Positions 2,582 through 58,727 of a DNA stretch of 64,000 bases are shown here, piece after piece. Position 1 is the first letter of the stretch. The number at the start of each line of letters is the position of its first letter. The notes beneath the pieces are model-generated. The model did no database searches. It had not been told where the DNA came from and was given only the letters and a program-made list of their open reading frames with translations. Both the position numbers and the translations under genes were made by a program. This stretch comes from a virus: IMG/VR virus record IMGVR_UViG_3300033182_001068, positions 64,001 through 128,000 of that record; one strand, written 5' to 3'.

Positions 2582-5500
2582 ATGCCTGATCAAGATATCG
2601 ACATCGAGTTCAAGGCTGCCCCCGCAGGGCAAGTCGCCGTAAACAAAAAAGGCATCGTGGAATGCTTCGTTGCAGGCATTGGAAACAAAGACAGCGTCGG
2701 TGACATCTGCGCTTCCGGAGCCTTCAATGCCAGCCTGAAACGCCGCAAGCCGCGTGTTGTTTGGGGCCACAACTGGAACGACCCGATCGGCAAAGTCCTT
2801 GAGATTTACGAGGTCCCCTCAAGCGATCCTCGACTTCCCGAGAAGATGAAACGTGCCGGTATTGGCGGTCTTTACGCCAAGGTTCAGTTCAACCTGAACA
2901 GCGAAAAAGGCAGAGAAGCCTTCGCAAACGTGCAGTTCTTCGGCATGGAGCAGGAGTGGTCGATCGGTTACAAAACCCTCGACGCCATCTTTGACCCGGC
3001 CAAACAGGCAAACGTGCTCAAAGAAGTCGAACTTTACGAAGTCAGTCCTGTGCTTCATGGCGCCAACCAGTTGACTGGCACCATCTCGATCAAAGGCGCA
3101 AAGAAGCCGCACAAAGACCCGAAGGGTGGCCTCACTGCTGCTGGCCGAGCCCACTACCGTCGCACCGAAGGTTCGAAACTGAAGCCCGGAGTCCGTGGCG
3201 CAGCCGACACCCCTCAGAAAATGCGTCGCAAGGGATCATTCCTGACCCGCTTCTTCACAAACCCCAGCGGCCCGATGAAGAAGCCCAATGGCAAACCGAC
3301 CCGTTTGGCTCTGTCCGCCGCCGCATGGGGCGAGCCAATTCCGAAGAATCGCAGCGACGCAGCAAAACTCGCTGCCAAGGGACGCCGACTTCTTGAGCGC
3401 TACGAAAACAGCAAAAAGAAGAAGGACGCCGAGTGGGACGAATGGGCAGAAACCGACGGCTTCTACGAGTTTGAGACGTACTTCAACGAAGAGTTCAAGA
3501 CGCTAGAAGACGATTACGACGTCAAAGAGTTCGATTCTGACCTTCTTGATATCGATGTTGATATCGAGTTGGAAGACGAAATGGACGAAAAGGGCCATTA
3601 CATGATGCGGATGATTCCCGCTCGCCGACCCGTGCCGCAGCGAGACATTTTTGCTGAAGGTGAGGCGGAACCGCTCAGTCCAGAAAAGCGGAACGCTCTC
3701 GAAATGGAGATTGCGTCTCGTGTGCAGGCCCCCATCAAGGTGATGTCCGCTACCGAGAACTTGGCGATCTTCGCTAAGAAGAAACCTGACGGAACAAAGC
3801 GGTTCTACCGCCTCCCGTACCATTGGGACACGGAAGAGCGCGAGTACATGTTCGGCAAGCCCGAACGAGTCATGCCCCAGATGACGTTCCGTCGAATGAA
3901 GCCAACTGTTCGAGCCCCTCAGGTCAAACCAAGCCAGACCACAAGTCGCGCCTACGTTGGACCCAAGCCCGAGCCGACGATGGCAATGGTCTTTGATGCT
4001 TACGAAAAAGATGAAGACGACCAAGAAAAGTCACTTGAGTACATGACTGATCTAAGCGGTTTCGAAGACTTCGACGAGAAGTCGGAGCAGCCCGAGGTTG
4101 TCATTCAGTGCGCCCCCGAGGACGCTTTTGAAGTCAAGACCGCTCTTGACCCGCTGTTCGAGTATCACGATGTCGAAGTCGAGGTCACCGAGGACGGGAT
4201 CAAGGTTCTTTCCGATCCGAGCGAAGAGTTCCTCGACGCCGTAGCGGTTGCTTCAAAGTCACTGTTTGGCGGTGGTTCAAAAAAAGCGCTTAGGTCCCTA
4301 CGGCGTGTAAACGCCCGGTTTGATCCAAATGCGATCGATGGAGACGAGGATGGGCTCGTTCAAGAGGGCACGCCCTTCGAACGTCCTGCCACGCCTCAGG
4401 TAGGGGCAAAACTTAGAGAAGCAGTTGCCGGTCCTCAAGGCGGGATGCAAAGTTCTCGCCGGTTTGATCAGATCTCAAGCCCGGACGAGTTCAAGGAAAC
4501 TGTAAAAGAGCGGGCCAACGCTGTCCAAGAAAAACTCGACGAAATCAAAGAGGTCTACGGCGCCCAGTACGAAAACCTCGCTTTGATGTCGAGGCTTGAA
4601 AACAGCCCGATGCTTGGCTCTGATCTAGAGGAACTGGCGTGGGCGGTTCTTGGCAGGGACGGCAAGGGCTTTGATGAAAGCCGAAGCGACGACGTTTCAC
4701 GACTTCTTTCGCAGTACGAGTCTTTCGACGAGGATCAGCGCGAGTTGTTCGACCTTGAATCAGAGTTGGACTCGCTGCACTCAACCGTTGAACAGTTGCG
4801 AGACGAACAAGAGAACATCACGGATTCGATCAAGCGTAACGAAGAAATGCTTGACGATCAGTTGGAGGTCATCAACAACGGCGGCAAGCGCCTCAGGATG
4901 AACCGTAGCGAATGGGAAGAAATCACATCTGCGTCCAACCGGGAATCTGCTGCAGACAAATGGCTTTCCGACAACCACGACCCCATCGACATCCAAGACG
5001 AAGGTTATGTGTCCGATATGCGGGAAATGTTGGCGGCTGCGGAAGAAGTTGATGACCTTCGGATGCGTCTCAACATGGACCGAGAAGATCTTGAATTTGT
5101 CGAAAGCCGCATCGGTGACCAAGACACGGCCAACCGCATCGTCGACGACCCGCTGTTTGAGTTGAGGGACACAGATCCGTTTAAGAACGACACGCAGCAG
5201 AGGCTTGTTGAAGGGGTCAGGAAATCTCTGGCCGAATACCGCAAGGCATCTGGCGATGGTCGCCGTGGGATGCGGTCAACTCGGAACCGCAACCAAATCA
5301 CGATGAACATGCGCAATCGTGATGTTTTGAAACATTCAGAGCGGCTGCGTGACTTCGCAGATTCTTTCGAAACTGACGACGAGCGTCGTGTCATCAACGC
5401 AGTTGCCGATGGCCTTGACCCGGCGTTTGAGGGTGGCCTTGACCGCCGAGACATGCAGCGTGTCATCGACTTGCTCAACGCTGACGGCGACGCCGACGAG

Positions 5501-7837
5501 TCCGGTGGCTTGTTTGAAACCGCAGAGTTGCTTTCCAACGCAAAGAACGGAGCACGCAACGGCATTTGGACCGACGCAAATGTCGACCCCAAGGCTCAGG
5601 TGCGCAACGATTTCGGCAAGTCGAGCAACGTCCGCATCCCCCCGAAGGGTATTTCCGTTCGACTGAACGACACCGAAAAGGGCGATATCCGTAGGGCTAT
5701 GGCCGATGAGAAGAACTCGCTGCAAGGAATTGAAGGACTCGTTGAGTTCGACCAGTGGCTGCGGGGATCTTCGGACAAGATGGATGCCGACACCGCTCAG
5801 CGGATTGTCAACGGTTTCAACGAGTACGCCAGCCGTTCAGAACGTCAGCCCAACCCGACGCTTGTCGCCGCAAAGGACGTAATCGACTTTGCTGCGCTTG
5901 ATCCGAACGGCACCTACGAATCCCCGAACATTGGTAAAGACGTCGGCATGGGAAGCAAGCGTCCTGCCGTGCCGGGCATGACACGACGAAATATGAGCGA
6001 TTTGCTGTCTTGGGGCCAGAACGAGTCTGACTCCATGACCCGTGATCGTTATGTCGGTCGCGACGTAAATGAGGTTTCTCCCGCTGGCTGGGCATTCTTG
6101 TCCGGACGACGTGAAGAAGCAGGTATGCGTTCGAGTCGTGATGACGACAACGCTCCAGCCGCTGTCCGCACCATGGGTGTCGATACTGGCAAGGAACGTC
6201 AGCGTGGTCGCCCCATGGGAACGGTTCAGGAAGAGGCCCGCTTCAAAGGTAAGAAGTGGGACGAGATTAAACCAGATAACTGGGATGAGATGACGACTGA
6301 GGAGCAGATGGATGCTCTTTACGAGTTTTACTCTCCTTCTAAGTCCGGTTTGCGTGAAGTTGATTTCCAGCGGCTGTCTGGCCAGTTGGCTAAAAAGTAC
6401 TTCGATGAGGAAAAGAGGCGTGAGCGCAGGGCGAACCGTGACCGGCTTCGTCGGGAAATGCGTGACCGCCCAACCCCGGCACCGGCAACGCAGGAACCGC
6501 AGCAGCAGGCAACTCCTGAACCGGAAGCGCCACAAGCGGACGCTCCGTCACCATCAGCAGTTAGCCAGTCTCAAACCCGAGACCTAAAGAACCTTGACCG
6601 CCGCATTTCGGGCAACGGAACCCGGATTTCCGACGCTGTCAACGAGGGCGAAGCAAGCGACGACCATAAAGAATTTTGGGATTCGCTGTCCGATATTGCT
6701 CAGGAGCCAGAAGACATCACCGCAGCCAACATCGCTGAAATGCGTCAAGCCGTTGATGAATACCTCGACCGGTTCCGTAACGACGATCTGACCGCTGCGG
6801 AGTCCGCATCTGTTCAGGCAGCGATGAGCCTGTCGAGTTACATCGACGGAATGGAAGAGCGTTACGGTGACGCCGGTGTTGATGGTGGGCCACGCCAACT
6901 CGCTGACATGACTGGCGAAGAGGGTATGCGCTCATTCCGTAATTACAAGCCATCTTCGATTGCTCAGTCCTATCTGGATGCAAGGCAAAGTGGCGGTATG
7001 CGTTCGGCTCGTCAAGAACAAGAACTTTTTGATCGAGCCGGAATTTCCCGCACAGATCTAACGGAAACCGAGCAAAACAACATCACCCGCATCGTTGACC
7101 GCCTGAAGAACTACATGGAAGATCGGGCGCTCCTTGGTGACGAGGCAGCGGTAGAAAGTGAAGAATCTGCTGATCCAGATCGTCCTATCGGCGAACACCG
7201 CAAAGAGTGGAGTTTTGGTCGATTGCTCACTGATGCCGCAGACAGCATCCAAGACGGCAGCGTTGGAACCATCGAGATCGAAGAGTTGGCAAACTTCATC
7301 AACAGAACCCCTGCGTTCCCTGATGAAATCGGTGCTGACGTCCTTGAACTACAAAACATTCTCTTCGATTTAAGGAAACTACCTACAGATAAGCCTGATG
7401 GCTTCCGCTCTGAACGTGCAGGTCGGACCCAAATCCGTGACGAAGCAACGTATTTCAAAGATGTTGAGCGTTCGTTGCCGAAGGAAATTCGGGAAGCGCA
7501 ACAGAGTGGGGATCGTTCAACGGCTGATGCTTTGCGGACTTTGGAGCAGATCATGAGCCGTCAGAAGTCTGGCGCTACTGGGGATCGCAGGACGAACGTT
7601 GGCACGATCACTGTGACGCAGCAAGAAGTTGACGACATCATGGATGCCTTGATGGTTGTTGTAGATAGGCAGATGGAGACCGGGGGCTCCCGTGTCGTAA
7701 TGTTCTCAAAACTCATTGACATGTTCGCTGAAGCGGCAATGGGAACGTTCGTGACGGGCGAGACTGAAGAAATCCAAAGCCGAACCCAGACCAGAACCAA
7801 CTCTCAGGGCCGAACGGTACAGATTCCGGATAACTGA
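2582..7837 (+). CDS. Prohead protease fused to a giant head-associated extension
   Basis: The first 175 residues of this 1751-residue protein look like an HK97-family prohead (U35) serine protease, with the catalytic His in VVWGHNWNDPIG (His63) and Ser in EQEWSIGY (Ser127). These enzymes cleave scaffold and capsid proteins inside the prohead. Families of this type are usually about 200 residues, so the remaining 1570 residues are a large addition. They contain an acidic region (about 270-330), a DxDxDG-QEGT module at nt 4316-4393 (about residues 579-604), long charged coiled-coil-like segments (about 640-900), and five GMRSxR-type peptides at nt 4439, 5267, 6122, 6923 and 6995. A strong AAGGAGG site precedes the ATG. 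The extension has no recognised enzymatic domain. I infer it acts as scaffold or internal head protein and is self-cleaved. Confidence 0.85.
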   Translation: MPDQDIDIEFKAAPAGQVAVNKKGIVECFVAGIGNKDSVGDICASGAFNASLKRRKPRVVWGHNWNDPIGKVLEIYEVPSSDPRLPEKMKRAGIGGLYAKVQFNLNSEKGREAFANVQFFGMEQEWSIGYKTLDAIFDPAKQANVLKEVELYEVSPVLHGANQLTGTISIKGAKKPHKDPKGGLTAAGRAHYRRTEGSKLKPGVRGAADTPQKMRRKGSFLTRFFTNPSGPMKKPNGKPTRLALSAAAWGEPIPKNRSDAAKLAAKGRRLLERYENSKKKKDAEWDEWAETDGFYEFETYFNEEFKTLEDDYDVKEFDSDLLDIDVDIELEDEMDEKGHYMMRMIPARRPVPQRDIFAEGEAEPLSPEKRNALEMEIASRVQAPIKVMSATENLAIFAKKKPDGTKRFYRLPYHWDTEEREYMFGKPERVMPQMTFRRMKPTVRAPQVKPSQTTSRAYVGPKPEPTMAMVFDAYEKDEDDQEKSLEYMTDLSGFEDFDEKSEQPEVVIQCAPEDAFEVKTALDPLFEYHDVEVEVTEDGIKVLSDPSEEFLDAVAVASKSLFGGGSKKALRSLRRVNARFDPNAIDGDEDGLVQEGTPFERPATPQVGAKLREAVAGPQGGMQSSRRFDQISSPDEFKETVKERANAVQEKLDEIKEVYGAQYENLALMSRLENSPMLGSDLEELAWAVLGRDGKGFDESRSDDVSRLLSQYESFDEDQRELFDLESELDSLHSTVEQLRDEQENITDSIKRNEEMLDDQLEVINNGGKRLRMNRSEWEEITSASNRESAADKWLSDNHDPIDIQDEGYVSDMREMLAAAEEVDDLRMRLNMDREDLEFVESRIGDQDTANRIVDDPLFELRDTDPFKNDTQQRLVEGVRKSLAEYRKASGDGRRGMRSTRNRNQITMNMRNRDVLKHSERLRDFADSFETDDERRVINAVADGLDPAFEGGLDRRDMQRVIDLLNADGDADESGGLFETAELLSNAKNGARNGIWTDANVDPKAQVRNDFGKSSNVRIPPKGISVRLNDTEKGDIRRAMADEKNSLQGIEGLVEFDQWLRGSSDKMDADTAQRIVNGFNEYASRSERQPNPTLVAAKDVIDFAALDPNGTYESPNIGKDVGMGSKRPAVPGMTRRNMSDLLSWGQNESDSMTRDRYVGRDVNEVSPAGWAFLSGRREEAGMRSSRDDDNAPAAVRTMGVDTGKERQRGRPMGTVQEEARFKGKKWDEIKPDNWDEMTTEEQMDALYEFYSPSKSGLREVDFQRLSGQLAKKYFDEEKRRERRANRDRLRREMRDRPTPAPATQEPQQQATPEPEAPQADAPSPSAVSQSQTRDLKNLDRRISGNGTRISDAVNEGEASDDHKEFWDSLSDIAQEPEDITAANIAEMRQAVDEYLDRFRNDDLTAAESASVQAAMSLSSYIDGMEERYGDAGVDGGPRQLADMTGEEGMRSFRNYKPSSIAQSYLDARQSGGMRSARQEQELFDRAGISRTDLTETEQNNITRIVDRLKNYMEDRALLGDEAAVESEESADPDRPIGEHRKEWSFGRLLTDAADSIQDGSVGTIEIEELANFINRTPAFPDEIGADVLELQNILFDLRKLPTDKPDGFRSERAGRTQIRDEATYFKDVERSLPKEIREAQQSGDRSTADALRTLEQIMSRQKSGATGDRRTNVGTITVTQQEVDDIMDALMVVVDRQMETGGSRVVMFSKLIDMFAEAAMGTFVTGETEEIQSRTQTRTNSQGRTVQIPDN

Positions 7838-36441: not shown

Positions 36442-37880
36442 GAATCCTTGGTATTAACGACTCCAGCCATGATGCCGCAGTAGCCGTAATAGAAAACGGC
36501 GAAATTCTGTTCGCCGCACATAGTGAACGATATAACCGAGAAAAGAACACATTCGCTGTTGATAGACAACTTCTCGACGACGCCCTCAAATACGGCAAGC
36601 CCGACGCTGTCGCTTACTACGAAAACAGAACAAAAAAACGGCTCAGGCTGCTACGACACGGCGGACTCAACGGCCAATACAAACACCTGTACAAAAAACT
36701 TGGCTACAAACTCGGCCCAGCCGAACAAATCAACCACCACTACAGTCACGCATGCGCCGGGTACTACACGTCCACATTCGAAGATGCCTGCATCGTTGTC
36801 CTCGACGCAATCGGAGAATGGGAAACCGCAACAGTCTGGGATGCGGCAGGCAACAACATCACCAAACGGGCCTCATGGAAATACCCGTTCAGTTTCGGGC
36901 TGTTCTACAGCGCATGGACCGACTTCCTTGGCCTAAAACCCGGACAAGATGAGTACATCCTGATGGGAATGGCCGCATACGGCGACCCATACCGGTTTGA
37001 AGGGCTCGTCAATTCGTACTTCCCTAAATACAACCGGCAGACGTACAACTTTCATCGAGGCATCAACGACATCAAAAAAGACGTAATCAAAAACGAACAC
37101 GACAAGTTCGATCTTGCCGCCGCCGTTCAACTCGTCTACACAAAACGACTTGTCGAATTTATGCAAAGGGCACGAGCAAGAACATTCAGCCAAAATCTCG
37201 TGTTCATGGGCGGCTGCGCACTCAATTGCGCCGCCAACACAAAACTGCTTGACATTTGGAGAGAAGTCTGGATCATGCCCAACCCCGGCGACGCCGGGTC
37301 AAGCCTTGGGGCTGCCCTCGCCCTGCACGGACGGCACGTCGAATGGAGAGGTCCATACCTTGGTCATGATATTTCTGGCGAATGGCCCGTAGAAGCGGCA
37401 TTTGACTCACTGATCACAACGGGAATCGCTCCAGTCGCATCTGGACGAGCAGAGTTCGGACCCAGAGCGCTCGGTAACCGCAGTTTGCTCGCCGACCCAA
37501 GATCTTTCGAGATGAGAGACAAAGTCAACGAGATAAAGCACCGAGAAAAGTTTCGCCCGTTTGCTCCAGTCGTAATGGAGGAACATGCTCATGAATGGTT
37601 CGACCTTGATCGACCAGCACCGTTCATGCAGTTCGCTGTGAAGTGCAAACGCAGGTCAGAAATACCGGCAGTTGTCCACTGGGACGGAACTTCACGTGTT
37701 CAAACCGTCAACGAGCACCAGCATCCAGCCCTCTACACACTTTTGCAAAAATGGCACAGAGAAACAGGCGTCCCAGTTTTGTTAAATACCAGCCTCAACG
37801 TAAAAAACCAACCGCTACTCAATTCTTACGCAGATGCACTTGAGTGGTCACAGACTTACGGACATAAAGTCTTGTCGTGA
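36438..37880 (+). CDS. Carbamoyltransferase (TobZ/NodU/CmcH family)
   Basis: A 480-residue enzyme that would transfer a carbamoyl group from carbamoyl phosphate via carbamoyl-adenylate to a hydroxyl of a sugar, antibiotic or modified base. N-terminal motifs MRILGINDSSHDAAVAV and INHHYSHACAGYYTS hold the metal-binding His residues. The ASKHA-like middle has LVFMGGCALNCAANTKL and PNPGDAGSSLGAAL, and the C-terminal domain has GRAEFGPRALGNRSLLADPR, KFRPFAPVV and PVLLNTSLN. This is shorter than the roughly 550-600-residue bacterial enzymes but keeps all these motifs. Phage homologues are known, some linked to DNA base hypermodification. The adjacent oxygenases could make the acceptor hydroxyl (inference). 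Confidence 0.92.
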   Translation: MRILGINDSSHDAAVAVIENGEILFAAHSERYNREKNTFAVDRQLLDDALKYGKPDAVAYYENRTKKRLRLLRHGGLNGQYKHLYKKLGYKLGPAEQINHHYSHACAGYYTSTFEDACIVVLDAIGEWETATVWDAAGNNITKRASWKYPFSFGLFYSAWTDFLGLKPGQDEYILMGMAAYGDPYRFEGLVNSYFPKYNRQTYNFHRGINDIKKDVIKNEHDKFDLAAAVQLVYTKRLVEFMQRARARTFSQNLVFMGGCALNCAANTKLLDIWREVWIMPNPGDAGSSLGAALALHGRHVEWRGPYLGHDISGEWPVEAAFDSLITTGIAPVASGRAEFGPRALGNRSLLADPRSFEMRDKVNEIKHREKFRPFAPVVMEEHAHEWFDLDRPAPFMQFAVKCKRRSEIPAVVHWDGTSRVQTVNEHQHPALYTLLQKWHRETGVPVLLNTSLNVKNQPLLNSYADALEWSQTYGHKVLS

Positions 37881-39085
37881 ACATGATGACACCCAACGAA
37901 CGCGACTCCCAAAAGAAACTTCTTGCAAGAAACGCGCACATCCTCAAACAAGAGGACTACATCATGGAAGTCATCGGTGATGACTGGTGGTCAAACACGC
38001 CATTACATCTTCTCCGAGAAGACGACCACCACAAACACCTCTACCCGGAAGTGAGTAAAGGCCACTTCGAGGACAACATTCACGAAACAGACGGCGCCCG
38101 CTGGACATACGGCGACCAGTGGTATCACTTCTTCGCAAAACCCCCATCAAAAGAACATCGGCTACCCGGACTGATTCATCGAGTCAACAGCGACAACATG
38201 AACGGCCCAGAATTTGTAAAGAATCCTGCGGTGCTCGCACTCGGCTGCTCAATTACCAGCGGCATCGGTCTCGTCGACGACTTTGCGTGGCCAGCCCTTC
38301 TACGTCACCAAACACAAAACACAGTGAACAACATGGGGATACCGGGAGCGTCACCAGCACAATGCGTATACACTGCATTCGCCCACATGAGGAAATGGGG
38401 CAACCCCGGTTGCATCTACTTCCTCGTTCCACCCCTTGACCGCTATTGGGGTCCGAAAAAAACACGAACGAACGACGGGTCATTGCGGCCAGATGTGTGG
38501 TCAATGAGTGGTTTGCATTATTTTCCTGAAATGCAGCAATACGTCATCCACTCGTCTGGGGGAGACCGAACGACAAAGTACAAACATGAAGCGATCGACG
38601 GAAACAAGACACTCCTTCCTGTGGATCTCGTTGCCCATCACAATCTCATGATGATTGAAACGTTGATGATGTATTGCGAGGCAAACAACATCGACATGAA
38701 GATTTCCTCTTGGTGTCGCCGGACCCACATGCACCTCACCCTGATCGGATATCCACAACTTGTTGGAATCCCAGACTTTCTCCGCAAAGAGGACATTGAA
38801 GCCCACCTACACGAAGACGACGAGTACAACGAGTGGGGTGCTCCGCACGAAATGTCTCCTATGGGTTCAAGAAAGAACTGTTGCGACCGGACACCGCAAA
38901 ACAAGTGGCAAGACCGCATGTGGGATCATGCGCTCGACATCAAACACGACCGCTACTACCCGCATCCGGGCCTTCACTACCATCTGCATTTTGCGGAACT
39001 GTTTTTAGGTCGGCCGATCAGCAACGAAGAACTTGCGGAAATTCGTCCGTGGCACGAAGGAACATCCCTCGAACCAACCGACTAG
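37877..39085 (+). CDS. SGNH/GDSL-type hydrolase-like protein (copy 1)
   Basis: A 402-residue protein from GTG 37877, overlapping the carbamoyltransferase stop (GTGA). The central VLALGCSITSGIGLVDD segment corresponds to SGNH block I (with Cys in place of the usual Asp of GDS), NNMGIPGASPAQ to block II, and HDRYYPHPGLHYHLH near the end to the catalytic Asp/His block. SGNH enzymes remove acyl groups from sugars or lipids. It shares block order and a C-terminal GS..NCC...N.W...HPG pattern with the next gene, so the two are tandem paralogues. Confidence 0.7.
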   Translation: MNMMTPNERDSQKKLLARNAHILKQEDYIMEVIGDDWWSNTPLHLLREDDHHKHLYPEVSKGHFEDNIHETDGARWTYGDQWYHFFAKPPSKEHRLPGLIHRVNSDNMNGPEFVKNPAVLALGCSITSGIGLVDDFAWPALLRHQTQNTVNNMGIPGASPAQCVYTAFAHMRKWGNPGCIYFLVPPLDRYWGPKKTRTNDGSLRPDVWSMSGLHYFPEMQQYVIHSSGGDRTTKYKHEAIDGNKTLLPVDLVAHHNLMMIETLMMYCEANNIDMKISSWCRRTHMHLTLIGYPQLVGIPDFLRKEDIEAHLHEDDEYNEWGAPHEMSPMGSRKNCCDRTPQNKWQDRMWDHALDIKHDRYYPHPGLHYHLHFAELFLGRPISNEELAEIRPWHEGTSLEPTD

Positions 39086-39135
39086 ACCAGATAAATCTAA
39101 ACGCAACCACAACGCCGCAAAATAAACCCCACCCC

Positions 39136-40017
39136 ATGATCAGCGAATACCTCACCCAACGCAACCCCCACATCATCGACTACGACTACTCCACCGCATG
39201 GCAACACCACAAAAACATCGAATACGCCCACTTCACCGAAGAACACATCCAGATAAATCCAAACGGAACACGAACAACACAAGGCCAAAACTGGCACACC
39301 CCAATCCCCGGCCACACCTACACCGTCAACAACCAAAACTGGCACGGCACCAACTTCACCACCAACCCCGACATCATCACCGCAGGCGACTCAATCACCG
39401 CCGGATACGCCCTCAACCACACCCAAACATGGTCACACATCTACGCCACACACACCAACCAAACCCACAACAACATCGGCTGGCCCGGCGCATCAATCGC
39501 ACAAACCATCCACATCCTCTACAACCACATACACCACTGGGGAACCCCAAAACACATCCACATCTGCCTCCCCGACATCACCCGCGCATGGGCAACCCAC
39601 AACGGCCAAAACCAACCACTCTGGTACAACCCCAACACCAACACCTACCACACACACCAAAAAAACGCCCACAAATTTAAACAAACCTCACCCGACGGAA
39701 CAAAAAAACCACCACCCCTACAAACCACCCTCAACGAAAACACCCGCGCAATCCAACACCTCACCAACACACTCACAACACTCAAAACCCAACTCACACT
39801 CACCACACACAACCAAAACACCCACCAAGCACTCCACACACACCCCAACTACAAACACAACCACCACCAACCCCCACCACACACCCCAATAGGATCAAAA
39901 AACTGCTGCAACCACCCAGCAAACACATGGGCAAACGACAACAACCACCCCGGACCCCACACACACCACCACATCGCAGAAACCCACAACCAAGCACCAA
40001 TCCCATGGCAAAACTAA
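39136..40017 (+). CDS. SGNH/GDSL-type hydrolase-like protein (copy 2, extreme composition)
   Basis: A 293-residue protein from ATG 39136. IITAGDSITAGYALNHTQ is SGNH block I with the catalytic Ser, NNIGWPGASIAQ is block II, and the NNHPGPHTHHH tail matches the paralogue upstream. Nearly every codon ends in A or C and the protein is loaded with His, Asn, Thr, Gln and Pro, because the plus strand here is extremely A/C-rich and G/T-poor. The paralogue just upstream does not show this, so the bias is local to about 39.1-40.6 kb. There is no obvious ribosome site. An upstream in-frame extension falls inside the previous gene and is rejected. Confidence 0.7.
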   Translation: MISEYLTQRNPHIIDYDYSTAWQHHKNIEYAHFTEEHIQINPNGTRTTQGQNWHTPIPGHTYTVNNQNWHGTNFTTNPDIITAGDSITAGYALNHTQTWSHIYATHTNQTHNNIGWPGASIAQTIHILYNHIHHWGTPKHIHICLPDITRAWATHNGQNQPLWYNPNTNTYHTHQKNAHKFKQTSPDGTKKPPPLQTTLNENTRAIQHLTNTLTTLKTQLTLTTHNQNTHQALHTHPNYKHNHHQPPPHTPIGSKNCCNHPANTWANDNNHPGPHTHHHIAETHNQAPIPWQN

Positions 40018-40082
40018 CCCGAAAACTCAAAAAACTCTGGCACCGCCTCCGACGCACACACAAACCCCCCTACATCTACTAA
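40005..40082 (+). CDS. Possible 25-residue basic peptide
   Basis: A short reading frame begins at an ATG inside the 3' end of the SGNH gene. It encodes a very basic peptide (MAKLTRKLKKLWHRLRRTHK start) ending PPYIY, with a TAA 16 nt before the HNH gene. It fills the only gap between those genes. Low confidence, because the base composition alone favours open frames here. Confidence 0.25.
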   Translation: MAKLTRKLKKLWHRLRRTHKPPYIY

Positions 40083-40098
40083 CCAGACAAACCCAACC

Positions 40099-40587
40099 AT
40101 GACACCACAACAACGATTCTGGAAAAAAGTCAACCGCACCACCAACCACAACGACTGCTGGGAATGGACAGGCGCCCTCAACAGCAAAAACTACGGAGCC
40201 CTCCAAGCCAACAAACAAAAATGGCTCGCCCACCGCTACTCCTACACCATCAACAAAGGCCCAATCCCACCCGGCCACCAAATCATGCACACCTGCGACA
40301 ACACCAAATGCGTCAACCCCAACCACCTCATCGCAGGCACACAAAAAACCAACATGCGCGACATGGTCAACAAAGGCCGACACCCAGAACACAAAGTCAC
40401 ACACTGCCCACAAGGCCACGAATACACCGAACAAAACACCTACCGCCAACCATCAAAACCAAACCAACGCCTCTGCCGCACCTGCCGCCAAATCGCCAAC
40501 GCCAAACGCCCACCACGCACCGAATACAACCGCCAATACTGGAAAACCAGCAAATGGAACCCCAACCGCACAGATAAATCCAACTAG
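40099..40587 (+). CDS. HNH homing-type endonuclease
   Basis: A 162-residue protein with a typical phage HNH layout: an N-terminal FWKKVNRTTNHNDCWEWTG segment, GYG-like NYGALQAN strand, HRYSYTINKGPIPPG, then the catalytic HTCDNTKCVNPNHL (HNH) and NMRDM, with a second Cys pair (CPQGH...CRTC) in the C-terminal zinc region. Such genes are usually selfish homing endonucleases that insert between phage genes. It shares the A/C-rich composition of the SGNH gene before it and sits exactly at the composition switch, so it may mark an insertion boundary. Confidence 0.88.
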   Translation: MTPQQRFWKKVNRTTNHNDCWEWTGALNSKNYGALQANKQKWLAHRYSYTINKGPIPPGHQIMHTCDNTKCVNPNHLIAGTQKTNMRDMVNKGRHPEHKVTHCPQGHEYTEQNTYRQPSKPNQRLCRTCRQIANAKRPPRTEYNRQYWKTSKWNPNRTDKSN

Positions 40588-40751
40588 AAACACCACACAA
40601 CAAAAAAATGGCACGCCTCCCCCCACGCACGCTGGGCGGCGCGGAAAAGTTTGCGGGGCTTTGCCGCTGCGGTTTCTGTGGTGTGTGGTTGGTGTAGGTG
40701 TTGTGTGTTGAGGTGGTTGTTGGTGGTGTTGTGGTGTGGGACAATGTGGTT
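40588..40751. other. Intergenic switch from A/C-rich to G/T-rich plus strand
   Basis: This 164-nt gap holds no gene. To its left the plus strand is almost only A and C for about 1.5 kb; to its right it is G/T-rich for about 0.8 kb, although genes on both sides point the same way. The centre (about 40620-40675) is GC-rich with small hairpins such as GCGG/CCGC, and contains the leftmost CGGGGCT heptamer that I found (about 40653). A mirror-symmetric skew of this kind can mark a replication origin or terminus. I see no iteron array or AT-rich unwinding element that would settle it. Confidence 0.5.
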
Positions 40752-41399
40752 ATGAGTGATCGGGTTTCTGTTGATGATTGGGTGCGGCCAGCCGGGGCTG
40801 ATGTTGAGGGGTTTCGGCGTGAGGCGAATGGTTGGTCGCCTGTGTGGTGTGAGCAGGCGGTTGAGACTTTTGAGGCTGGTGGTGTTCATCTGAAGGGGAT
40901 GAACTATACGAAGCCTGAGTTGCGTGAGCGTTTGAAGCGTCGGATTATGGCTGGGTCTAAGGGTGGGAGGCCGGGTCAGTGGTCGGCTCGTAAGGCGCAG
41001 TTGTTGGCGCAGGCGTATCGTAAGGCTGGTGGTGGTTATCGGGGTAAGAAGTCGAAGCGTCAGCGGTCGTTGTCGAAGTGGACGCGGGAGAAGTGGCGGA
41101 CGTCGGATGGTAAGCCTGCGAAGCGTCGTGATCGTAAGGGGCGTGAGGTGACGACTCGGTATTTGCCTGAGAAGGCGTGGCGCAAACTGTCCACGGGTGA
41201 ACGTGCGGCGACGAATCGTAAGAAGAAGCGTGGTTCTCGTGATGGTCGGCAGTTTGTGTCGAATACTCGGCGTGCTCGTGATGCTGGTCGTGATGCTCGT
41301 AAGTCTGGTGACGATCTTGTTGATGGTGTTGGTGGTGGTCGTCGTGAGCCGATTACCGGTGATGCGAAGCCGAAGCGTCCCAAGGGGAACCATCTCTAA
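40752..41399 (+). CDS. DUF5872-type basic protein
   Basis: A 215-residue, very basic protein. Residues about 70-180 match the pattern that I know as DUF5872: KGGRPGQWSARKAQLLAQAY, then GGGYRGKKSKRQRSLSKWT, RYLPEKAWRKLSTGE and a Lys/Arg-rich tail with FVSNTRRAR. Function of the family is unknown, though the charge suggests nucleic-acid binding. Codons end mostly in T or G, the reverse of the genes upstream. I chose ATG 40752; an upstream in-frame start at 40698 gives only low-complexity Val/Gly sequence. Confidence 0.75.
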   Translation: MSDRVSVDDWVRPAGADVEGFRREANGWSPVWCEQAVETFEAGGVHLKGMNYTKPELRERLKRRIMAGSKGGRPGQWSARKAQLLAQAYRKAGGGYRGKKSKRQRSLSKWTREKWRTSDGKPAKRRDRKGREVTTRYLPEKAWRKLSTGERAATNRKKKRGSRDGRQFVSNTRRARDAGRDARKSGDDLVDGVGGGRREPITGDAKPKRPKGNHL

Positions 41400-41407
41400 G
41401 ATAATGC

Positions 41408-45351: not shown

Positions 45352-47136
45352 TTAGGTCACGTCTAGGAAATCAATGACCTCAAATGGGAACTTTTTGCCA
45401 CGTTTCATCGAAGTTGGCCACGGGCGCAAATCACGAGCCCCACGGAAATGATTCACCTCATACACGTAGTCGGCGGTCGCCATCGGGTCAGGTTGCAACG
45501 CCAAACCGAACTCGGGCCAACGTGACCACACAGCCGAACCGAACGGACGCAACTCACGGGTAGTCATAGACGCACCCAGCGGAGCGTGGTGTTCCAGCCA
45601 CAGAGCAACCCCATACACCGCACGGATCTTGTCCAAATACTTTGCGACCTCAATCGCCACCGCTTCAGACGTCCGAGCCCCGGGATCGAGAAATGCTTTG
45701 TACAGCGGCCCTATCACCAGCAGATCAGGTTGGACCGTTTCGATGTGTTCTTCCAGCATCGCACGGTCAGCGACCGACAGCAGGTTCAGCCCATCCGGTT
45801 TGATGACCAGATGCGAATCGCTTTTACGTTCATACCCCATCGACTTAGCCGCACCCATGATTGACGTTGAAGTTCGTTTGATGATGCGCTCAGGGTTCTC
45901 CAAGTCCACAGTCAACGTGCGGATACGAGGCATTCGTTGGAACGTAAACGGGTTGACGCCAAGCCCACAGCAGATCGCGACCTGTCGAGCCAGCATCGTC
46001 TTGCCCACACCCTCAGCAGCAACAATCATTACGCGTTCCTGCCGTTCGAGGAGCCCCGGGATCAACCAGTCGTACGACTCGTCGGTTTCTTCCTCAATGA
46101 ACTCGGCCCAGTCAACGAGCCGACCCATGTCACGCACAGCGAACTCGTCACCGGATGACAGGGCAACATCTGCGACCTTGAGCAGGATGTGTTGCGGGTT
46201 CTTGCCCGACGAAATCAGTTCAGCGATCTTGAGGATCGCCTCTTCCTCGGGTGAGCGTTCTTCCTCTACCAGTTCCGGCTCTTCGCCGTCCTCCGGTTGT
46301 TCCTCCGCTTCGATGCTTTGGCCTTTGAACTCATCTGCAAGGTCCGCCGCCGGGACTGCGACAAGTTCGTCCGTCGCGCCTCCTTGTTCGAGATGATCGT
46401 AGATGTCTTTAGTTCCGTCTGGGCATCGCCAGAGTTCTGCATCGCAGCCAGCCTCTCGGAGCAGTCGGTGTACGAGCAGTCCGTGTCGTCTACCGGGTTC
46501 GTCGTTGTCGATGATGATGTCCACCGTCGCTCCAGCGAGAGCGTCAGTGTGTATGTCGAGCCATTTGCCTGCCCCACCGGGCATAGTTGTGGCACAAGCA
46601 CCCATTCGGATGAGAGCATCAGCGTCTTTCTCTCCTTCCACGAGGAAGATCGAGTCCCCGTTCTCTTTCGCTTTCAGTACTGCAGGGAGGTTGTACAGCA
46701 CCTTCGGTGTGTCACCGAGGCTGTAGGTCCAGCCGCCTTTGCCGTCCGGTTTGCGTTGCCGGAACGTTTTCTTGCCGTCGGGTTCCGTGTACCGCACCTT
46801 CTCGAACAGCAGAGTGCCGTCAGCGTCACGGTATTCGTACTTGGCGACGAACTTGAGTTTGGGTCGTTCCTGCTTCGGATACGGGACTTCAACCATCGTC
46901 GACGAGTCTTGCGGCCAGAGGTCTTTCATTTGTAGACCGCACGCTGCGACAATGTCGGGTGTTCCGCAGCCTCCGTTGCGATGACAGAACATGACGACTT
47001 GGCCGTCCTCTTTCTCCTTGATGGAGAGCGACGGGTTTCGGTCGTCTTGACGGCATGGGCATCGTGCTTCCCATCCGTTCGCTGATTTTACGACGCCGTC
47101 CAGTCGGGATAGCAGAGTGGAGGTGTGCGCGAACAT
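45352..47136 (-). CDS. DNA primase-helicase (TOPRIM plus RepA-like ATPase)
   Basis: A 594-residue replication protein. Residues about 25-65 form a CHC2-like zinc region (CPCRQDDRNPSLSIKE, CHRNGGC). A TOPRIM core follows with SIFLVEGEKDADAL near residue 165 and DIIIDNDEPGRRH near 210. An acidic linker (about 275-305) leads to a RecA/RepA-type ATPase with Walker A VAAEGVGKTM near residue 375 and Walker B LLVIGPLYKAF. This is the usual architecture of actinobacteriophage primase-helicases that unwind DNA and lay primers. It is flanked by the WhiB and TerS-like genes in one minus-strand transcript. Confidence 0.9.
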   Translation of the reverse strand: MFAHTSTLLSRLDGVVKSANGWEARCPCRQDDRNPSLSIKEKEDGQVVMFCHRNGGCGTPDIVAACGLQMKDLWPQDSSTMVEVPYPKQERPKLKFVAKYEYRDADGTLLFEKVRYTEPDGKKTFRQRKPDGKGGWTYSLGDTPKVLYNLPAVLKAKENGDSIFLVEGEKDADALIRMGACATTMPGGAGKWLDIHTDALAGATVDIIIDNDEPGRRHGLLVHRLLREAGCDAELWRCPDGTKDIYDHLEQGGATDELVAVPAADLADEFKGQSIEAEEQPEDGEEPELVEEERSPEEEAILKIAELISSGKNPQHILLKVADVALSSGDEFAVRDMGRLVDWAEFIEEETDESYDWLIPGLLERQERVMIVAAEGVGKTMLARQVAICCGLGVNPFTFQRMPRIRTLTVDLENPERIIKRTSTSIMGAAKSMGYERKSDSHLVIKPDGLNLLSVADRAMLEEHIETVQPDLLVIGPLYKAFLDPGARTSEAVAIEVAKYLDKIRAVYGVALWLEHHAPLGASMTTRELRPFGSAVWSRWPEFGLALQPDPMATADYVYEVNHFRGARDLRPWPTSMKRGKKFPFEVIDFLDVT

Positions 47137-58626: not shown

Positions 58627-58654
58627 AACACATTGTACCTCATCAGAGGCTGTG

Positions 58655-58727
58655 TCCCTCCGGCGGGGCTCGAACCCGCGATCTTCGGATTAAAAGTCCG
58701 CTGCCTTACCAACTTGGCTACAGAGGG
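58655..58727 (-). tRNA. tRNA-Lys (anticodon UUU)
   Basis: Reverse complement folds as a 73-nt cloverleaf: acceptor CCCTCTG / CGGAGGG, D arm with TTGGTAAGGC, anticodon loop CTTTTAA (anticodon TTT), T loop GGTTCGAGCCC. CCA is not encoded. The anticodon stem has one mismatch. It probably serves AAA codons in phage genes. Confidence 0.92.

Follow-up and report, generated by a model that had tools for sequence, protein, structure and literature searches.

Mirror-image switches of strand composition in an uncultured phage genome: candidate replication origins

Introduction

Strand-specific C→T and A→G substitutions, arising from exposure of one strand or from the polymerase working near the origin, are a feature of vertebrate mitochondria and of the footprint of Pol I at the ColE1 origin. 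In bacteria the leading strand commonly shows an excess of G over C and of T over A, as a passage of PMC3174206 states (see also PMC2099444). Among phages, the origin of lambda sits within gene O, according to a passage of PMC6022878, and ICP1 has two origins, one used early and one late, as deduced from read depth (PMC7145576). How does the locus described here compare with these systems?

The window is a stretch of 64,000 nt, positions 64,001–128,000 of IMG/VR record IMGVR_UViG_3300033182_001068 (G000; 137,029 bp), whose composition profile was assembled piecewise and covers the whole record. Encoded proteins include a tail sheath, a baseplate wedge, a large terminase, a portal and a ribonucleotide reductase. 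The closest named relatives of the primase/helicase (window 45,352–47,136, minus strand) are mostly actinophages and, given also the presence of WhiB, the host is probably an actinobacterium. The sole tRNA of the window is a tRNA-Lys (TTT) at 58,654–58,727, on the minus strand.

The switch in the window

Plus-strand A+C averages 0.51 over the record (SD 0.06, 300-bp windows). Per 100 bp it lies at 0.71–0.93 over 39.1–40.6 kb of the window, peaking at 0.93 in 39,801–39,900, and at 0.19–0.41 over 40,601–41,400. The preliminary description had reported this mirror, and it proves stronger than was claimed. Maximum likelihood sets the changepoint after 40,630 (2-lnL support interval 40,626–40,633), dividing a plus-strand A/C block (39,088–40,630) from a G/T block (40,631–41,399). 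It falls, as had been described, in the gene-free gap after the HNH gene, which spans 161 nt and not 164, from the HNH stop at 40,587 to an ATG at 40,749. How unusual is this step? Scored as A+C of the 400 bp to the left minus A+C of the 400 bp to the right, steps across the record have an SD of 0.061 and exceed 0.3 at 53 of 12,903 sampled positions. The most extreme A/C and G/T values in the record fall in the switch region of the window and in record 1.0–2.9 kb, where a second switch lies. Over 209 loci scanned, scores above 0.4 occur only at these two switch types, the next best being 0.29. Genome-wide skew trends, once gene direction is controlled for, are weak (rho −0.27 and 0.53). Away from the switches, two more stretches of the plus strand are G/T-rich (locus L002): record 8.9–9.4 kb, in a Thr-rich low-complexity structural-type gene (8.5–10.9 kb), and 11.3–11.8 kb, in the gene of a repetitive structural-type protein (11.2–12.7 kb).

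All genes between 39,136 and 41,399 lie on the plus strand, so the earlier statement on gene direction is true locally. The first is an A/C-coded SGNH-hydrolase-like gene (39,136–40,017, 293 aa), a weak label given for its GDS motif, with no matches in Pfam or PHROG; it is 29–32% identical to its non-skewed upstream neighbour, an SGNH-like paralogue (37,877–39,085, plus strand) that serves as a control for substitution types. Its end is overlapped by a 25-codon ORF (40,005–40,082) with HKPPY near the C-terminus, a feature also found in the related locus L088. The A/C-coded HNH endonuclease gene (40,099–40,587) follows, and beyond the gap lies a G/T-coded DUF5872-like gene (40,749–41,399, 216 aa). 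Third positions are mostly 90–100% A/C in the SGNH-like and HNH genes and 0–16% in the DUF5872-like gene; codon and amino-acid choice thus track the skew, as had been noted. Over roughly 10 kb to the left of the switch, third-position A/C on the plus strand climbs from about 0.54 to around 0.7. To the right, the G/T block breaks off sharply at 41.4 kb, where a promoter-like sequence lies, and the next gene begins with a third-position A/C of 0.78; no long-range keto excess was found on this side. In a relative of 45% GC (L244 1,340–4,500, corresponding to G003 41.36–44.5 kb), the window-type switch has a G/T side more than 3 kb long, which holds other genes; several of these are preceded, on the minus strand, by CAGATAAAC-like motifs.

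At its left edge the A/C block opens with a CAGATAAATC(TAAACG) motif (39,088–39,097, plus strand; also 39,250–39,259 and 40,571–40,580), and the same motif opens the A/C blocks of L089 and L133. The form CAGATAAATC[CT]AAA occurs at block starts and in block interiors (window 39,088, 39,250 and 40,571; L089 5,774; L133 4,939) and is perhaps a phage-specific promoter. Around the changepoint itself, a by-eye alignment shows an ordered element at 40,600–40,660 on the plus strand: an A-tract, a C-run (CCCCCCA), then AAAAGTTTG and CGGGGCT. The order is identical in L088 and L226 and looser in G003. Could this stretch act through RNA structure or as a conventional initiator site? Its RNA folds are no more stable than those of shuffled sequences and Rfam has no match in 38–43 kb, and RNA structure was accordingly rejected as the basis of the switch. 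By eye, no iterons or DnaA boxes at the switch are common to the window, L088 and L226; the gap of L088 carries TTGTCCACA and an inverted copy of it, which the window and L226 lack. DnaA boxes are not obligatory in phage origins. As a universal marker of switches, CAGATAAATCYAAACG was discarded, since most viral contigs that carry it show ordinary composition.

Two causes residing in the genes themselves were also rejected. In 43 other viral loci the homologues of the DUF5872-like gene show an A+C of 0.50–0.59 and are not G/T-rich, so the composition of this family is not intrinsically skewed. Homing of the HNH gene fails as a cause because L226, which has no HNH gene, retains the switch.

A second switch and the two arms of the genome

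A second switch of the same polarity lies at record 1,441, beyond the window and 103 kb away. Here the plus strand is A/C-rich from about 1.0 kb and G/T-rich up to 2.9 kb, the skew having faded by about 3.4 kb; fading with distance is also seen left of the L088 switch. The genes run loader-like (+), small ORF (+), unknown (+), WhiB (−) and HslV-like (−), and over record 1.5–2.9 kb a G/T-rich plus strand spans both a plus-strand gene and the minus-strand WhiB and HslV-like genes. Strand composition at this switch is therefore independent of gene direction. The skew belongs to the DNA strand, not to codons or genes. HslV and WhiB were themselves considered as the cause and dropped, since phage record DSL-LC01 has both and shows no strong switch (best scores 0.22–0.23).

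The switch falls within a small ORF beside a helicase-loader-like gene. A scan with HslV-like proteins gave 17 loci. In all 14 loci examined across the ORF (L002, L133 and twelve more, several of them near-identical copies, so that about seven lineages are independent) the changepoint is at codon 28–29; in a fifteenth, G001, it lies in the same ORF, some 20–30 codons later, and is less sharp. Across the switch, third-position A/C goes from 27/29 to 0/32 in L213, from 25/29 to 1/32 in L219 and from 24/28 to 2/28 in L002, with L218 and L220 less extreme. One copy (L210 6,376–6,558, minus strand) spans the switch with an in-frame TAG at codon 46. What does the ORF encode? Its structure model is ribbon-helix-helix (RHH)-like, with two confident helices, and the best PDB matches are RHH antitoxins, MatP, Arc, AmrZ, NikA and CopG, with probabilities of 0.9–0.98 for the top matches yet every E-value above 0.1; the predicted product is thus RHH-like. 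The neighbouring gene matches a helicase-loader family in five of eight homologues (best E 4.5e-5). The window switch differs in having no RHH gene: only the second switch lies inside an ORF for a predicted DNA-binding protein.

Together the switches divide the record into two arms that differ in GC: 0.534 in arm A (103 kb) and 0.563 in arm B (34 kb). Arm B includes the primase/helicase-like gene, at a distance of 4.7 kb from the window switch. The coincidence with a CGGGGCT-rich region, remarked on earlier, is exact: this word is absent from the 103 kb between record 1.44 kb and the window switch and has 56 copies in the 34 kb to the right of the latter, the first at 40,654–40,660 on the plus strand, 24 bp from the switch. 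For CGGGRCY, mostly CGGGGCT and CGGGACT and found on coding and non-coding strands alike, the counts are 1 in arm A versus 92 in arm B (record 104,654–137,029 and 1–1,441; in the window, 40,654–64,000). All 50 copies in G003 lie between its two switches (11.0–41.4 kb) and none outside; in G001, 38 of 57 lie within 139–156 kb and few in the GC-rich 0–45 kb. The outermost copy is 24–43 bp from the window-type switch in G000, G003 and G001. Copies in G003 and G005 are frequently arranged as inverted pairs with 17–18 bp spacing, and CGGGRCY looks like a putative protein-binding dyad confined to one genome domain. The 0–45 kb segment of G001 (155,887 bp) has a GC of 0.61, against 0.52 in arm A, and ends at the window-type switch.

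Direction and maintenance of the substitutions

Comparison of the junction among related phages, which the preliminary description had proposed, finds the switch in both L088 and L226, its composition neither absent nor being lost. Window and L088 share 75% nucleotide identity over the switch region. Among their differences at fourfold sites, 24 of 28 in the A/C-block genes are A↔C and 27 of 35 in the G/T-block gene are G↔T; in the upstream control gene A↔C accounts for 19 of 69 and every type is present. A↔C differences are as frequent in the A/C block (24/144) as in the flank (19/111), and of the 144 fourfold sites of the block none differs by a change involving T and only 4 by one involving G. 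On the A/C strand, C→T and A→G hence appear suppressed, not merely outrun or reverted. L088 has an extra SGNH-like gene (5,282–5,998) in which third-position A/C rises from 0.33–0.45 to 0.79 as the block is approached, showing that the gradient crosses gene borders; the window does not have this gene, which can explain the sharper left edge of its block.

What happens when coding constraint is removed? L225 and L226, identical here and recovered from two metagenomes, have lost the HNH and DUF5872-like genes, and their copy of the A/C-coded SGNH-like gene is a pseudogene, disrupted by a stop at codon 22 (TGG→TGA), a frameshift and a deletion. In this lineage 32 of 132 G/T sites became A/C versus 2 of 498 A/C sites that became G/T (p=3e-21), the evidence coming from one lineage with direction assigned from three sequences. 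The 32 changes are 11 G>A, 13 T>C, 5 G>C and 3 T>A. The stop codon and the alteration of GDS to RNS support the assignment of changes to this lineage. In the intact orthologues G/T sites changed at 8 of 109 and 4 of 104, and were gained at 13 of 524 and 17 of 502. Freed from coding constraint, the gene thus seems to drift towards pure A/C. These comparisons indicate a skew that was in place before the relatives diverged and whose maintenance continues.

Proposed origins of replication and competing explanations

From each switch the keto-rich strand runs outward on both sides, which is the polarity of an origin, and every strong switch has this polarity, with two each in G000, G001 and G003. 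We consider it probable, at roughly two chances in three, that both switches are replication origins with outward leading-strand synthesis and extreme strand-specific mutation. The substitution bias at the switches is observed directly, and origin activity is what we infer from it. Of the explanations offered in the preliminary description, an origin agrees with the polarity, the gradients, the independence of gene direction and the exact conservation in relatives, and remains a reading of sequence; a terminus is disfavoured, as the opposite polarity would be expected.

How could an origin produce such a pattern? Each switch would be a fixed start for leading-strand synthesis outward in both directions, that is, a bidirectional origin, and the genome would have two, 103 kb apart on the record. 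Over 1–2 kb per side the outward strand (the minus strand on the left, the plus strand on the right) would gain C→T and A→G and be spared the reverse changes, becoming G/T-rich while its partner becomes A/C-rich. Candidate chemistries are G–T wobble errors by the polymerase making the first leading-strand stretch or deamination of a long-exposed lagging-strand template; with the suppression of C→T and A→G on the A/C strand, one-sided polymerase errors are somewhat more compatible than deamination by itself. The RHH-like protein and the adjoining helicase-loader-like protein may take part in initiation. More tentatively, and at somewhat under even odds, the first 1–2 kb of leading strand would be made, or the lagging template exposed, under strongly mutagenic conditions acting on one side, which would let origins be read to near single-base precision, with the two origins delimiting domains of which one is marked by CGGGRCY. 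The abrupt 41.4-kb edge and the missing long-range skew to the right are not explained by origins.

The same suppression would also fit selection on the strand itself, which we keep as the main rival while regarding it as unlikely. An unstructured A/C strand paired with a G/T strand would have to be preserved for about 1.5 kb, serving, for example, in the loading of a helicase or primase, in R-loop formation or in packaging. Intruding G or T would be purged, and the sharp right edge at 41.4 kb would also suit this reading. Hundreds of synonymous sites would, however, have to be under selection, and a mutational process accounts more simply for the distance gradient, the persistence past gene loss and the symmetric mirror.

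In another explanation the points are not theta-type origins, and strand displacement starts there from a physical end or a programmed nick, such as a protein-primed end, a cos/pac cut or a nick of relaxase type. Outward synthesis from ends or nicks yields identical polarity, the switches are sharp at the level of bases, and RHH proteins act in relaxosomes, NikA being among the fold matches. Yet contigs from many samples run continuously through both points, there are two such points per genome, and double-strand-break resection would produce the opposite polarity. Nor is the terminase adjacent to a switch, as a cos/pac site would have it: the large terminase gene lies at record 62.9–64.0 kb, about 40 kb from the window switch. 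Altogether we find this improbable.

That a segment of such composition was recently inserted, or two genomes joined, is scarcely credible. The arms bounded by the switches do differ in GC and in word use, CGGGRCY density above all, and to that extent the two-segment junction proposed earlier stands; but the skew itself cannot come from a recent insertion, being older than the relatives' split and still maintained. The block is common to L088 and L226, its synonymous sites have stayed two-letter since the split, and the DUF5872-like gene is of ordinary composition elsewhere. Codon usage, protein composition or transcription direction, suggested by the codons and residues that track the skew and by the single orientation of the window genes, can be dismissed with similar assurance, as genes of both directions obey one strand at record 1.5–2.9 kb, one ORF swaps its codon set at codon 28–29 and the drift goes on in a pseudogene.

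Comparison with known systems

We found no description of such a local mirror in the open-access literature. If the switches are origins, sequence by itself would locate the start points of uncultured phages to a precision of a few bases, and the one-strand spectrum of G>A and T>C, with hardly any of the reverse changes, would offer a small genome in which to test what causes replication strand asymmetry. Within 1–2 kb of such points, gene calls, host prediction from codons and protein annotation would be distorted.

Set beside the keto and GC skew of bacterial origins, as far as the passages cited above describe it, the phage switches have the same polarity; they differ in packing the skew into about 1–2 kb per side, in reaching 95–100% at third positions and in flipping within a few bases. 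Unlike the asymmetry of mitochondria and ColE1, they form a bidirectional mirror, in a dsDNA phage, and are stronger. We know of no comparable local composition flip in lambda. The second switch resembles ori-lambda, in the placement given in the passage cited, by starting inside a coding gene for a (predicted) DNA-binding protein, and differs in that an RHH-type ORF replaces O and iterons were not found. With ICP1 the likeness is that of two start points in one phage, suggested here by the substitution pattern only.
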